From a bacterium (lineage in GTDB: Bacteria; Bdellovibrionota_C; UBA2361; SZUA-149; JAEUWB01): DNA of 64,000 nucleotides. Below are positions 47,384-53,406 of this stretch, piece after piece. The position numbers were made by a program, and so were the translations under genes. Where the stretch lies: positions 124,001 through 188,000 of the forward strand of contig JAEUWB010000003.1 in the NCBI GenBank assembly GCA_016786595.1, written 5' to 3'. How positions within the stretch are numbered: the stretch's first letter is position 1; every line of letters starts with the position of its first letter. The notes under the pieces were generated by a model. It did no database searches and was not told where the DNA came from. It saw only the letters and a list, made by a program, of their open reading frames with translations.

Positions 47384-47410
47384 TGGTTTGTGATACTAAA
47401 AAGATAAGTA

Positions 47411-47482
47411 ATGCCGAGAGCCGGAATCGCTCTATGTCTATTCGGGCCAGGGGCCCGAGGTTGGCACGTCGCTAAGTAACTC
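47411..47482. repeat. Left arm of a 72-bp inverted repeat around tRNA-Leu(UAA)
   Basis: This arm is 64/72 complementary to 47734-47805. Its first 19 bases (47411-47429) are the exact reverse complement of the tRNA 3' end at 47703-47721. It lies in a 251-base gap after the membrane-anchored gene; the rest of that gap holds a TATAAT-like stretch near 47497 and a short hairpin AAGTAAG/CTTACTT (47600-47618) before the tRNA. Confidence 0.9.
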
Positions 47483-47634
47483 AGGCCCTGAAAAAATATA
47501 ATAGCAAGTCCTGTGCGTCCCTAGGCGCACAACCAAAAAAACAAAATCTTAACTCTCTTCTGGGGAAATTCACTGATTCTTTTCTTTCTGTTAAAAGATA
47601 AGTAAGTGTAGCTTACTTCAAATCCACACCTTAT

Positions 47635-47720
47635 GCCGGGATGGCGGAATTGGTAGACGCACAGGACTTAAAATCCTGGGTTGCGAAAGCGACGTGCCGG
47701 TTCGATTCCGGCTCTCGGCA
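47635..47720 (+). tRNA. tRNA-Leu (anticodon UAA)
   Basis: Acceptor GCCGGGA (47635-47641) pairs with TCTCGGC (47713-47719) with one G-U; discriminator A at 47720, CCA not encoded. The anticodon stem CAGGA/TCCTG encloses loop CTTAAAA, anticodon UAA. A long variable arm (GGTTGCGAAAGCGACG) and T-arm GCCGG-TTCGATT-CCGGC complete a class II tRNA of 86 nt. Confidence 0.97.
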
Positions 47721-47733
47721 TAGAAATTCTCCT

Positions 47734-47805
47734 GAATTACTTAGCAACTTGCCAACCTCGGGCCCCTGGTCCGAATAGAGATAGAGCGATTCCAGCTCTC
47801 AACAT
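47734..47805. repeat. Right arm of the 72-bp inverted repeat around tRNA-Leu(UAA)
   Basis: It starts 13 bases after the tRNA. Its last 19 bases (47787-47805) are a degenerate direct copy (16 of 19) of the tRNA 3' end. The rest of the 305-base gap up to 48025 contains no gene I can support; a strong TAAGGAGAG ribosome site for the pilin gene is at its end. Confidence 0.9.
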
Positions 47806-48025
47806 TCACATCAACTCCTCAATTGACTTTCACGACATTTCCGTAATTTTCACTACGAGTTCCCATGAGGAATGCTATCTAGCTGTATTTACTTTACTAT
47901 TCCATGTAGTTTTTATGAATAAGAATTTCACTAAAAGCTATAGTTATTTTCTTCTAATGACGAAATAAATACTTAGTTGGGGCGCTGTGTGAGGCCTCTA
48001 TTTTTTATCCTTAAGGAGAGCTGCA

Positions 48026-48559
48026 ATGAAAAAGATAATCGCAAAGGTTTTAGTGGTAGGAGCTTTAATGTCAACGACTACTGCTCTTGCTGCGACAGAC
48101 GGAACAGTTGGTGCAACCTCAACCGGAACTGCCAATATTACATTAACAATTCCAAAGTTAATTAAGTTAGTAGGACTGGCGGATTTTGCTTTTGGTACAT
48201 ATACGGGCACAGGTGACTTTAACGGCAATGAAAACGTTGTTGTTTCAACAAACTACGGAACTGCTGCTCGTACATATCGCATCAGGGCGACAGGTAGTGG
48301 TGCAAGTAGCGCATTTACATTGACTGATGGATCGCAGACTATTCCATATGCAGTTTATTGGAACGATGCGACAGGAACATCTGGGCGTGTTGCACTTACT
48401 ACAAACATAAACTTGACAGCCCAAGGCGGTGCGTCAAAGCCACTTTCAAGTAGTTCTGATAACGCAAACTACAGCGTTGAAATTCTTGAAGCTAACATGC
48501 AATCAGTTGACGCCGGTGCATTTTCTGGAACACTAACACTAGTCGTTACCCCTGAATAG
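48026..48559 (+). CDS. Pilin-like subunit 1 of the chaperone-usher locus
   Basis: A 177-residue exported protein with signal peptide MKKIIAKVLVVGALMSTTTALA. The mature part is almost all beta strands: ADFAFGTYTGTGDF near its start, YRIRATGSG, FTLTDGSQTIPYAVYWND and a final GAFSGTLTLVVTPE strand, the shape of spore-coat-U/DUF4402-type pilins whose missing strand is supplied by the chaperone or next subunit. Near-consensus ribosome site and a terminator hairpin behind it suggest high expression as the main shaft subunit. No cysteines. Confidence 0.75.
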   Translation: MKKIIAKVLVVGALMSTTTALAATDGTVGATSTGTANITLTIPKLIKLVGLADFAFGTYTGTGDFNGNENVVVSTNYGTAARTYRIRATGSGASSAFTLTDGSQTIPYAVYWNDATGTSGRVALTTNINLTAQGGASKPLSSSSDNANYSVEILEANMQSVDAGAFSGTLTLVVTPE

Positions 48560-48581
48560 TGCTTGTTAATTGAAAATCGTA

Positions 48582-48616
48582 ACAACGGGGCTGTTTTTCA
48601 GCCCCGTTGTGTTTTC
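48582..48616 (+). terminator. Intrinsic terminator after the first pilin gene
   Basis: ACAACGGGGCTG (48582-48593) and CAGCCCCGTTGT (48599-48610) form a 12-bp perfect stem with loop TTTTT, followed by GTTTTC. It separates the first pilin from the rest of the locus and probably allows only part of the transcripts through. Confidence 0.85.
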
Positions 48617-48641
48617 AGTTGAAGTGTTTTTAATTAAGCCT

Positions 48642-49103
48642 ATGAAAAAAAGTTTATGTCTAATCTTAAGTTGTATCTTATTTTGGACAAATCCAGCTCT
48701 TGCAGTTGTGCGCATCAGCAATATGAATGATTTTGCTTTTGGGACTTGGAGCGGGTCAGGAGATTTGCAGCTTACGGATGCAGTTTGTATTTATGATAGC
48801 GCTGGTGGAGCTGCAAACCGCAGATATTTTATTACTCTAACAGGGAGTGGCGCAGGCGGAGCCTTTACAATTGCAAGTGGCGCAAATACTCTAGCTTATT
48901 CTGCCGCTTTTGCAGGTTCAAATGGCGTCTTCACGAATATGACAGCTGGTGTGAGGGTGCAATTTGATGGAGCGCACAGAACTTCTAATACTTGCGGCGG
49001 AACTACAAACGCCCAAATTCGAATCAGCCTTACTCAAGCTAATATGCTTACTGTAGACAATGGTTCATATAGCGGCATTCTAACAGTATTGCTCCAACCG
49101 TAA
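48642..49103 (+). CDS. Pilin-like subunit 2 of the chaperone-usher locus
   Basis: A protein of 153 residues from ATG 48642; the frame is open to 48570 but that part covers the terminator. Signal MKKSLCLILSCILFWTNPALA. The mature domain parallels the first pilin: NDFAFGTWSGSGDLQ versus ADFAFGTYTGTGDFN, ITLTGSGAGGAFTI versus IRATGSGASSAFTL, and a terminal GSYSGILTVLLQP strand. Two cysteines (AVCIYD and NTCGG) could form a disulfide that subunit 1 lacks. Minor or tip subunit by position; the chaperone gene follows. Confidence 0.75.
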   Translation: MKKSLCLILSCILFWTNPALAVVRISNMNDFAFGTWSGSGDLQLTDAVCIYDSAGGAANRRYFITLTGSGAGGAFTIASGANTLAYSAAFAGSNGVFTNMTAGVRVQFDGAHRTSNTCGGTTNAQIRISLTQANMLTVDNGSYSGILTVLLQP

Positions 49104-49160
49104 CGCAGGCATTTTCAGCATCTTGTGCATTCAGCGCGTTGATTCTATGCTTGAAATCAA

Positions 49161-49889
49161 ATGTTTCGATCGATAGTTTTTTGCTTAATTTTTATTTTAC
49201 CTTCTCAGCTTGCCGCTCAAGTTTTCCCGGAGAAGGCATTCTACAGGTTTGATCCGCAAAAACCACCTGTTGTAAACGTTGATGTGATTAATTCGCACCC
49301 GACACGAACGATGCGGGTCGAAACAACTTCAATCAAAGTTAATGCTCCAGGCGAGAAGGACGAACAATCAACTAGCGAGGGGGCTCTTTTAGTTTCTCCC
49401 AAGTCATTTTCCTTAGCTCCAAACTCGCGGCGCACAGTGCGACTACTTTTAAAAGCAAAACCTACGACAACTGAGGACGTGTATCGTGTGGCCTTTGAGC
49501 CGAAATCTTTTTCTGAAGAAGTAGCTGCCATTGTGAACAGTAATGAAGCTAAGAAAACAACTCCACAGCTTGCTGTTTTAATCGGTGGGGGAATTCTAGT
49601 TTTTGCCCCGCCACAAAATGCAAAGAAAGAATTGAGCTGGGAAAAAACATCAGAAGGTTTACTCTTAACGAATACAGGCGATGTCAATTTGCTACTTTCT
49701 GCTACTGAATCATGTCAGCTTGGCGGTACGAAATGTGAAGGAACTGACCAAGGTAAACGCCTCTATGCTGGCAAATCCATGACGCTTAAAGGTGGGCCAG
49801 TGTTTCATCTGGAATGGGAACCCGTGGAAACTCCAATGCAAAAATTCACAATTGAAACAAGTCGAGGAAAAAAAGAATTTTCCGAATAA
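49161..49889 (+). CDS. Pilus chaperone, PapD-like fold
   Basis: A 242-residue periplasmic protein with signal peptide (to about residue 19, LAAQ). The N-terminal domain shows the immunoglobulin-like pattern FYRFDPQKPPVVNVDVIN, then ALLVSPKSFSLAPNSRRTVRLL (the P-x(3)-P/L-x-P segment of chaperones) and YRVAFEPKSF with the conserved Arg-x-x-F. The second domain is shorter and contains QLAVLIGGGILVF and LLLTNTGDVNLLL, also typical. It caps pilins before handing them to the usher, encoded 1 base later. Confidence 0.85.
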   Translation: MFRSIVFCLIFILPSQLAAQVFPEKAFYRFDPQKPPVVNVDVINSHPTRTMRVETTSIKVNAPGEKDEQSTSEGALLVSPKSFSLAPNSRRTVRLLLKAKPTTTEDVYRVAFEPKSFSEEVAAIVNSNEAKKTTPQLAVLIGGGILVFAPPQNAKKELSWEKTSEGLLLTNTGDVNLLLSATESCQLGGTKCEGTDQGKRLYAGKSMTLKGGPVFHLEWEPVETPMQKFTIETSRGKKEFSE

Positions 49890-49890
49890 A

Positions 49891-52311
49891 ATGAGTAGGG
49901 TTATTTTTTTCATCGCTTTGCTCCAGATCTCCCTCGTAGCCCATTTCGTTAAGGCCGAAGAAAATCCGATTGACCCCGCACAGAGCCTCAAAGAGTATAC
50001 AGCCTTTGATATTTTCCTCGGGGACGCCTTTAAGGGAATTGCGATGGCTTACTATTCTGATACTGCAGTTAAACTCGAACGTCCCCATGAAGTGCTAGAG
50101 CTTTTAGGATTTTCGGGTAAGGAAGCAGCAAATCAAGTTTTAAAATTATTGACCGATCCGATCGAGTCCAAGAAGTCAGTTCCGCATATTGGCTCAATCT
50201 CTGTAGATTCGAAAACATTTAGAATTGTTTTACGTCTAGAAGATGAATTCCTTGATACTGAAAAACTTGCCGCTAAAGGCTTGATTAAGCCAACAAGTGA
50301 TGAAGTTTCGTTGCGCACCGATTTCCAAGCTGTATATGCAAAATCAGCGGAAGAAGATCAGAGTTTATTTTCTAATCTAACCGATTACGGCTTTAATTCA
50401 GGTTGGTTAAGAGCTAATGCTGCAAAATCAAACGTGGATAACCGCGACGACATTCGCGAGATATCGGCGAATTATATTTTAGGACGCTGGATTTTATCAG
50501 GAGGTTTGATCGATACTGCTGGCGCAGAACTTATTCCTTCGACGTTTTTAACTGGGATTTCTTTACGTACTGAACCTTTACTCTATGAAAGTAGTGATGC
50601 GCTGCGTGGAAATTCATTCCAAATTAACGTGCCGACGCGAGCGACCGTTGAATTTTTTAAGGAAGGACAATTAATTGATCGTCAGGTCTTAGAATCAGGA
50701 AAGCGCGAAGTTGATACTACACGTTTCCCTCAAGGTGGATATTATGTCGATGTAGTAGTGCGTGAGCTCGCAGGCGGGGAGAGGCGTGAGCGCAAATTCT
50801 TTTCTAAATCTGGGTTTTTAACTACGCGTGGTGGCCCACAATTAAGATTTGATATAGGAAAACTCCGTGAGGAAGCAGATCTTTTAGATATCCCCTATTA
50901 TCGAAGCAGTCTCGAATGGAGATTATTTTCACCACTGCAATTAAATCTGGCTACATACGGCACTGATGATAAGCAAACTGGAGTTGTTGGCGTGCGAGCT
51001 ACCTATGGCGATTTTCTTTTAACGACAGCCGGATCATGGTCGTCGAACGATAAATTTAGCTATACGATAGGCGGCGGCGGGGCTTTATATGGAATTTCTT
51101 TTTCTGCCGATCATGAAAAATCTGAATTAGTGCCGATTGACGAACTTGAGCGCAGGGAGCAAGTTGGCGAGGGGTTTAACCAATCACTTACGCCGATTGA
51201 TAATCTATTTAACCCGGTTACGGCACGCGAAGGGGAGAGGACAAATGTCTACATTTCAAAATGGATTGATGATTTAGAGCTACGTTTTAATGCAATTAAC
51301 ATTAAGCGTGACGATGAGCCGGCATTTGAAACCTATGGGCCCACAATTCGCTATCGCATCCTTGAAGATGCAAAGAATTCCCTCTATGCCGAAGCTTCTT
51401 ATCAAGTCACTAAAGAGAGTGATCTTGTATTAGCTTTCATTAGTTGGCAGCGTAGATTTCTGCCCTGGTCGATTGACTCAACTGCGGGACTTAGAACGGT
51501 GCAGAGTAATAACGAAGCTGGATCGGTCAAAGATGATTTTGGTCCGATGCTACGTGAAGCAGTTCAGTATGACGCAAGAAATAGTAAAACAGCGCAAGGC
51601 TTGCGAGCGCGCTTAGACGCATTAATGCGCGATCAGGAAAGTGGGTCGCTTGGAACCTTTACAACTTCGCAAGTTGAATACGGCTCTAATTATGGCGGCC
51701 TGCTTGCGGCACTTAATCATCAACAGGACTCAAATCAATCGCAAGATAGTGAAGCAATTGGTGCAAATTTAAGCATGGCCTTAAGTAGCCAAGGAAAGCT
51801 CACTACGGGACCTGCTGGACTGGGCGATGCTTTAATTTCTGTTGAAATTGTGAATCCTGACTCCGCTGCAGCTACTGATATAATCATCGATGGTCAAACG
51901 GTTAAAACTATCCACGGAGCTGGAAAGGTCTTAATTGGCGTTTCTGCCTTTCAGAAATATTCTGTAAGAATTAAGCCTGCGGTGAACTCGCCGGTGATGA
52001 GTTATGACAATAAGACTTATCAAGTGCTACTCTATCCTGGACATGTACAAAGGCTTACCTTTGACGTAGCTAAAGTTTTTGTAGCAATTGGTAAAATTGT
52101 TGACAGCAATGATCAACCTTTAGCTTCAAAACGCATCAAGGGGTTACGAGAATTCCCCCTAACTGAAATTGATGGGTCATTTCAAGTCGAAGTTAATGGG
52201 CACGAGGAAATTTCTGTCGAAATCAATGCGGGTGAGAGTTGTCATCTAAAACTACCTGAGGTCGGAGAAGTTGAATATTTTTACGATTACGGAACGCTTA
52301 AGTGTCTGTAG
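49891..52311 (+). CDS. Outer-membrane usher (CS1/TcfC- or archaic-type)
   Basis: A protein of 806 residues from ATG 49891; the frame starts earlier (49792) inside the chaperone gene, but 49891 gives the signal peptide (MSRVIFFIALLQISLVAHFVKA) right after the chaperone stop. The stretch LRTEPLLYESSDALRGNSFQ and the following VEFFKEGQLIDRQVLESGKR, with DTTRFPQGGYYVDVVVRE, are typical of CfaC/TcfC-type ushers. The middle has the alternating strands of a 24-strand barrel, and the C-terminus a beta-sandwich domain with a cysteine pair (ESCHLK, LKCL). It exports and polymerises the pilins from the three preceding genes. Confidence 0.85.
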   Translation: MSRVIFFIALLQISLVAHFVKAEENPIDPAQSLKEYTAFDIFLGDAFKGIAMAYYSDTAVKLERPHEVLELLGFSGKEAANQVLKLLTDPIESKKSVPHIGSISVDSKTFRIVLRLEDEFLDTEKLAAKGLIKPTSDEVSLRTDFQAVYAKSAEEDQSLFSNLTDYGFNSGWLRANAAKSNVDNRDDIREISANYILGRWILSGGLIDTAGAELIPSTFLTGISLRTEPLLYESSDALRGNSFQINVPTRATVEFFKEGQLIDRQVLESGKREVDTTRFPQGGYYVDVVVRELAGGERRERKFFSKSGFLTTRGGPQLRFDIGKLREEADLLDIPYYRSSLEWRLFSPLQLNLATYGTDDKQTGVVGVRATYGDFLLTTAGSWSSNDKFSYTIGGGGALYGISFSADHEKSELVPIDELERREQVGEGFNQSLTPIDNLFNPVTAREGERTNVYISKWIDDLELRFNAINIKRDDEPAFETYGPTIRYRILEDAKNSLYAEASYQVTKESDLVLAFISWQRRFLPWSIDSTAGLRTVQSNNEAGSVKDDFGPMLREAVQYDARNSKTAQGLRARLDALMRDQESGSLGTFTTSQVEYGSNYGGLLAALNHQQDSNQSQDSEAIGANLSMALSSQGKLTTGPAGLGDALISVEIVNPDSAAATDIIIDGQTVKTIHGAGKVLIGVSAFQKYSVRIKPAVNSPVMSYDNKTYQVLLYPGHVQRLTFDVAKVFVAIGKIVDSNDQPLASKRIKGLREFPLTEIDGSFQVEVNGHEEISVEINAGESCHLKLPEVGEVEYFYDYGTLKCL

Positions 52312-52371: not shown

Positions 52372-53406
52372 ATGAAAAATAAAATACTATTTAGCTTAGC
52401 GTTATTTATTTCAATAAATGTTATGGCCCAAGAATATAAAAAACCAAATGATTCAGAGTTGCAGAAGCTTTTATCAAAAGAGCAATACTCCGTGACTCAG
52501 CAATGTAATACTGAACCACCATTTCGAAATGCCTATTGGGATAATAAAGCTCCAGGTATTTATGTTGATGTAACAACAGGCGAGCCGCTTTTCAGTTCCA
52601 CTGATAAGTATGATTCGGGAACTGGGTGGCCGAGTTTTATGCGTCCAATCGTGGGCACTGATCTTGTTGAGAAAGCGGACCGGCAGTACGGCATGAGAAG
52701 AATTGAGGTAAAATCAAAATCAGGTGACAGTCATCTCGGACACGTTTTTGATGACGGTCCTGAAAAAAATCAGGGTGGAACTGGACTGCGTTACTGTATT
52801 AATTCTGCATCACTTCGCTTTATTCCAGCAAATGAGCTTGAAGCAGAAGGCTATGGGAAATTTTTATATCTTTTTCAGCCAGCCGCAAACTCTGAAGCTA
52901 AGACAGCTAAGCATCAGCCTCAAACTGAAATTGCCACACTTGCTGGCGGATGTTTTTGGGGCATGGAAGATTTAATTAGAAAACTCCCAGGTGTTGTCGC
53001 GACAGAAGTAGGCTACACAGGAGGAAATACTGATCAGCCAATTTACGACTATGTGCATAGTGGCACAACTGGCCATGCCGAAGCAGTGCGGATAGAATTT
53101 GATCCTCAGCAAACTACATACGAAGAAATCCTTCGTTTCTTCTTTAGGATTCACGACCCGACAACGTTAAATCGTCAAGGTAATGACCGCGGCACGCAGT
53201 ATCGTTCAGCTATCTTCTTTCACTCTAAAGAGCAGGAGCTAGTTGCGAAAAAAATATTGGACGAAGTCGAGCTCTCGGGTAAATGGAAAAAACCCGTCGT
53301 GACCGAAGTAGTGACTGCTGGAAAGTGGTATCGAGCCGAAGATGATCACCAAGATTATCTGGTGAAACATCCAGGCGGGTATACCTGTCACTTTATTCGC
53401 GACTAG
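52372..53406 (+). CDS. msrBA: Periplasmic methionine sulfoxide reductase, MsrB-MsrA fusion
   Basis: A 344-residue protein with signal peptide ([20 protein letters not shown]). Residues about 30-165 are the MsrB domain: [34 protein letters not shown] and catalytic Cys in [12 protein letters not shown]. Residues about 188-344 are MsrA: catalytic [18 protein letters not shown], and the Tyr/Glu/Asp positions. The order B then A differs from the A-B PilB-type proteins but is known. The zinc cysteine pairs of many MsrB are absent (DSGTGWP lacks the Cys of GCGWP). It repairs oxidised methionine in exported proteins, perhaps including the pilus subunits next door. Confidence 0.93.

Follow-up and report, generated by a model that had tools for sequence, protein, structure and literature searches.

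Introduction

The described system closest to the one reported here is presumably that of the distal repeats of Escherichia coli tyrT and the RtT RNA (Rfam RF00391), where tandem units lie downstream of a tRNA gene and each includes its last ~19 nt. To our knowledge, RtT is known at one tRNA, and we know of no inverted T-arm or three-way junction there. Hairpins occur in loops of structured RNA genes as the intervening sequences of 23S rRNA and as REP- or RPE-like palindromic repeats, and T-box riboswitches are leaders of amino-acid genes that pair with the anticodon and CCA end of a tRNA.

According to a review from 2014, the tRNA genes of bacteria are uniform except where they carry self-splicing introns (PMC4033280). 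No earlier description of units such as those reported below was found in the open-access literature, though this is weak evidence as most subscription journals lie outside that scope. The window analysed here, a stretch of 64 000 nt, corresponds to positions 124001–188000 of contig C3 in a draft genome of 2.58 Mb in 60 contigs (G000), from a class of bacteria that is uncultured and little known.

The tRNA-Leu(UAA) locus

A functional tRNA-Leu(UAA) gene lies at positions 47634–47721 on the plus strand of the window (ARAGORN; Rfam RF00005, 59.7 bits) and, as reported in the preliminary description, is enclosed by an inverted repeat. The arms, at 47410–47485 (minus strand) and 47731–47806 (plus strand), are 76 nt long, 89 % complementary (64 of 72 positions in the earlier figure) and separated by 245 nt. 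The left arm holds, at 47411–47429, the exact 19 nt inverted copy of the tRNA 3′ end (47703–47721) noted before, and the direct copy that had also been claimed is present in the right arm at approximately 47787–47805, with mismatches. In a search of the whole of G000, the arms matched one another with an E value of 6.9e-23, and a chance origin is excluded because of this value and because copies were found in only 2 % of cases in the swapped-flank control described below.

Read on the minus strand, the left arm consists of a variable arm, a T-arm and the acceptor 3′ strand, and the T-arm includes a 32 nt insert with a GC hairpin (CGGGCC-CCT-GGCCCG) that is the same in the T-arm of the right arm, where one pair is G-T. 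Positions 47506–47519 are an exact 14 nt reverse copy of the D-arm/anticodon region of tRNA-Leu(UAA), and thus the left arm reaches to approximately 47519 as a longer pseudo-tRNA. In this extension (47486–47545, minus strand), which was defined by repeat search, alignment and direct reading of the sequence, an inverted repeat GTGCG..CGCAC occupies the place expected for the D-arm. Aligned to the tRNA, the left unit on the minus strand is a pseudo-tRNA-Leu whose anticodon loop is altered. A repeat search also revealed a 13 nt direct repeat AAAAGATAAGTAA on both sides of the left unit; on the minus strand this is a trailer repeat, TTACTTATCTTTT, with one copy (47399–47411) adjoining the 3′ end of the left pseudo-tRNA and a second (47593–47605) between the left unit and the tRNA. 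Going by the repeat search and the alignments, each arm is a partial and diverged copy of the 3′ region of tRNA-Leu(UAA); the two flank the gene in opposite orientation, the right arm being the direct copy. They are without a full inverted T-arm and fold moderately better than shuffled sequences (z −1.9 and −1.7).

Apart from the left unit, the only matches that the whole-genome search gave in G000 were the right arm and the end of the tRNA itself, and the notion that the arm might be a common dispersed repeat was rejected for this reason. Nor did the exact arm-core pattern match anything among the 84 980 other species of the collection. The closest named relatives of G000 by LysRS, a Bdellovibrionales metagenome-assembled genome (MAG) and two other MAGs, share 57–66 % identity, and no tRNA was found at the five nearest loci examined among the LysRS-based relatives. 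Elsewhere in the window, a pilus-type operon (48026–52311) encodes two small secreted proteins that match no Pfam family, a protein weakly matched as a PapD-like chaperone, and an usher whose domains are TcfC and CooC_C; a fused methionine sulfoxide reductase (SelR and PMSR) is encoded at 52372–53406.

Copies of tRNA ends across the class

When the tRNAs of G000 were compared by blast with their own surroundings, many were found to have exact direct and inverted copies of their ends of 12–21 nt, mostly within approximately 200 nt of the tRNA and usually as a direct copy downstream. The collection includes 46 genomes of this class. In six of these, counting tRNAs with a copy of their own sequence of at least 13 nt within 300 nt, with other tRNAs masked, 83 of 198 tRNAs (approximately 40 %) had one: 20/37 in G000, 6/36 in G004, 1/19 in G002, 19/32 in G016, 14/40 in G033 and 23/34 in G020. 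The control in which flanks were swapped gave 32/1584 in the same six genomes and 0/552 outside the class, where none of 69 tRNAs had a copy of its own sequence. The presence of units is patchy across the class, as seen in G002 and in a further genus (g17), for which a partial sample of three genomes gave 4/40.

The units originate locally, from the adjacent tRNA. In seven regions of G000, no tRNA fragments were found more than 400 nt from any tRNA, and the unit interiors occur only beside tRNAs, one separate dispersed palindrome excepted. A palindrome family, CTTTCTTTT..AAAAGAAAG, follows tRNA-Met, tRNA-Pro, tRNA-Ala-GGC and tRNA-Lys-TTT in G000 and also lies at dispersed sites. Downstream of the tmRNA in G016 and G033 (loci L433 and L434) there are 9–10 nt copies of the tmRNA 3′ end, and these may be the same phenomenon.

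The Leu arms very probably belong to this class-wide set of tRNA-tethered repeat units. Their arrangement had been called unusual, and this holds for the inverted copy upstream, but the locus is not isolated as copies of their own ends flank about half of the tRNAs in G000. It is atypical in that the gene lies between two units of opposite orientation.

Architecture of the units

The downstream units share a structural plan. At 32 downstream loci an inverted copy is followed by a direct one, and in most of them the order is tRNA, spacer, inverted T-arm, linker, half T-loop, variable hairpin, and 3′ T-stem with acceptor end. The units are 90–280 nt long, and no integrase or cargo was found between the repeats, the units being too short for such a gene. 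Of the downstream direct copies that extend to a tRNA end, 62 of 63 reach the 3′ end. Of 79 starts, most lie in the T-loop (36) or the 3′ T-stem (24). For inverted copies the start is at the 5′ T-stem in 46 of 57 cases, and they mostly comprise the T-arm and a few acceptor bases, while copies upstream of a tRNA begin at its 5′ end and break most often in the D-loop or 5′ D-stem. The direct repeats cover flanking sequence on both sides, running at least 6 nt beyond the tRNA end in 27 of 55 cases and in some by ~50–60 nt. Some units are in tandem, and others are nearly complete pseudo-tRNAs whose D- or T-loops carry hairpins.

In G016, the upstream units at tRNA-Met, tRNA-Asp, tRNA-Ala and tRNA-Pro repeat 32–49 nt of 5′ flanking sequence and with it perhaps the promoter of the tRNA; 5′ tRNA halves may thus be transcribed.

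Folding and change in step with the tRNA

Of 30 units, 16 are predicted to fold into a three-way junction in which the tRNA-derived ends form the closing stem, as are 89 of 900 shuffled sequences (10 %), the shuffles in this and the following test preserving base composition and not dinucleotides. All 17 units of one family (f15) have a hairpin of at least 6 bp at the place of the variable hairpin, which 13 % of shuffles have, and among these 17 there are 14 distinct stems.

G020 and G024 represent different genera of one family and have orthologous units at tRNA-Ser-GGA, Ser-GCT, Ser-TGA, Arg-ACG, Cys and Tyr. The spacers of these show no likeness recognisable by eye, and their linkers resemble GAAAAYACWGC. 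This motif was rejected as a class-wide signature because it is confined to family f15 and two matches elsewhere. At tRNA-Ser-TGA, the T-stem differs between the two genera, GAGGG/CCCTC being changed to GGGGG/CCCCC in the tRNA, in the inverted copy and in the direct copy alike, and the hairpin stem changes from AAATTTGC/GCAAATTT to CCATTTGC/GCAAATGG with pairing kept. A Ser unit from a third family (G016) has the stem CAGTTTGC/GCAAACTG, and in another genus two species have in common a Val unit, located upstream, whose stem is compensated. The units have persisted and remain matched to their tRNAs, and the matched changes at orthologous tRNAs suggest that the units are constrained and have long been retained. 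The tRNA-derived parts might also be kept matched by gene conversion from the tRNA, with no function involved, though neither the linker nor the hairpin can be explained in this way. The arms agree with the tRNA rather than with each other, the latter in 0 of 434 columns, a figure that is partly due to detection bias.

The compensatory changes were found by inspection of orthologous hairpins, and alignment-based covariation was weak: RNAalifold supported only the inner stem on a MAFFT alignment that left the variable hairpins unaligned. Mismatches in the hairpins are strand-biased (AG 48 vs CT 16; GT 26 vs AC 14), which hints at RNA, though the counts are not independent of shared ancestry. 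An Rfam cmscan of the loci identified only tRNAs and an intron in a relative, other matches (miRNA, plastid, sX4) being sub-threshold and several of them overlapping tRNA genes.

Integrative elements and introns

G000 encodes four tyrosine recombinases. An integrative element adjoining tRNA-His (contig C22, 12000–31500) encodes two of the tyrosine recombinase type, together with a primase-like protein and a type I restriction system. In relatives, gene-bearing integrative elements at tRNA-Leu(UAA) cut the anticodon loop, and their ends differ from those of the units. At three loci (L034, L040 and L041), the tRNA-Leu(UAA) anticodon loop holds an inserted element that supplies a complete replacement tRNA, situated between inverted repeats AAAAGAAAGTGAC...GTCACTTTCTTTT, and in some of the three an integrase-like frame lies beyond these repeats. 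The tRNA-Leu(UAA) anticodon loop of G024 (L038) is interrupted by a group I intron, identified by an Rfam match, and that of G027 (L039) by a similar insert of ~285 nt, judged from the split gene. The Rfam model Intron_gpI had no match in the window or in locus L004.

Origin and retention of the units

We lean towards the view that the tRNA-tethered repeats arose by local, partly fold-back duplication and are maintained elements kept matched to their tRNA. On this account, tandem and fold-back duplication of the tRNA ends would have produced the units, and the downstream unit would be retained because it folds as an acceptor/T-arm-like three-way junction, at the level either of the RNA, within the tRNA trailer, or of the DNA. 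Because the unit would fold on itself, the inverted T-arm would be held away from the tRNA, with which it could otherwise pair, and so be sequestered by the junction. By another route, the unit might be retained because, in the trailer, it mimics an acceptor/T-arm. At the Leu locus, a secondary rearrangement probably left one unit inverted upstream of the gene. The folded repeats may represent an unrecognised tRNA-linked element, and a function as RNA is conceivable, if doubtful. Equally tentative is the idea that the class encodes a co-evolving, tRNA-specific structured RNA beside many tRNAs, combining an acceptor/T-arm mimic with an antisense T-arm and controlling the maturation, stability or supply of its neighbour. 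The earlier suggestion of a structured RNA around the tRNA was nearer the mark in its 'structured' half, in a form it did not foresee, namely copies at about half of the tRNAs of G000.

Site-specific recombination offers a different origin: a tyrosine recombinase using the T-arm, with its inverted stems and 7 nt loop, as core site would leave direct 3′-end copies and inverted core sites adjoining tRNAs, as scars or mini-elements. The clustering of breakpoints in the T-loop and, upstream, in the D-loop is as expected from this, as are the direct repeats of the 3′ end and the tandem units, and G000 does encode tyrosine recombinases, with one element beside tRNA-His. However, four recombinases would have to serve approximately 20 different tRNAs, the units are short and have no genes, and the gene-bearing elements at tRNA-Leu(UAA) target the anticodon loop, with ends unlike those of the units. 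Moreover, integration does not yield inverted T-arm copies that match each host tRNA, and the retention of units across genera with compensatory changes also speaks against recombination, which we consider unlikely. Simple scars of tRNA-targeting integration fit poorly, and an integrase origin for all units was rejected as there are only four integrases and the junctions differ. The proposal that the Leu repeat is the scar of an inverted insertion is likewise weakened, as the arm, unlike a mobile repeat, is not dispersed in the genome and the elements of relatives cut this gene in the anticodon loop and not in the T-arm.

It is also improbable that the units are non-functional debris, left when tRNA genes were duplicated in tandem, templates were switched and hairpins inserted, with gene conversion from the tRNA keeping the copies alike. 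Such an origin would accommodate direct repeats that take in both flanks, near-complete pseudo-tRNAs with hairpins in the D- and T-loops, and arms that match the tRNA and not each other, but not a plan and a non-tRNA linker common to different tRNAs and genera; compensatory changes in hairpins at orthologous tRNAs would not be expected, and the absence of copies at the 69 tRNAs outside the class also counts against it.

If the units are functional, they add a new layer to tRNA biology; if they are selfish or mutational, they reveal a tRNA-targeted duplication process that yields inverted and direct copies. Either way, they form a system that can be tested, and they offer an origin for repeats near tRNA genes that would otherwise be puzzling.

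Comparison with known systems

Like integrative elements that target tRNA genes, with their attL and attR sites, the units involve direct copies of tRNA ends and breakpoints in tRNA loops, and the direct 3′-end repeat at the far junction by which tRNA-integrated mobile elements are recognised is present. They differ in having no cargo, no integrase per unit, an inverted T-arm copy, hairpins and a match to each individual tRNA. The group I introns of tRNA-Leu(UAA) likewise interrupt a tRNA gene in this class (in G024 and, judged by the split gene, in G027), though they sit in the anticodon loop and the one in G024 matches Rfam, whereas the units match no Rfam intron. With 23S rRNA intervening sequences and REP- or RPE-like repeats the units share hairpin insertion in loops of structured RNA genes, but the unit interiors are restricted to tRNA flanks and include tRNA sequence, and neither the Leu arms nor the other units have the copies elsewhere in the genome that mark REP and MITE elements. 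A T-box is, similarly, an RNA built for interaction with a specific tRNA; the units differ in that they are not leaders of amino-acid genes, are complementary to the T-arm and have no Rfam match.

The RtT covariance model had no match in 18 loci (cmscan, E≤1). RtT and the units reported here have in common repeats that include the tRNA 3′ end and lie downstream of the tRNA, and they differ in that the latter occur at many tRNAs, with an inverted T-arm and a three-way junction.
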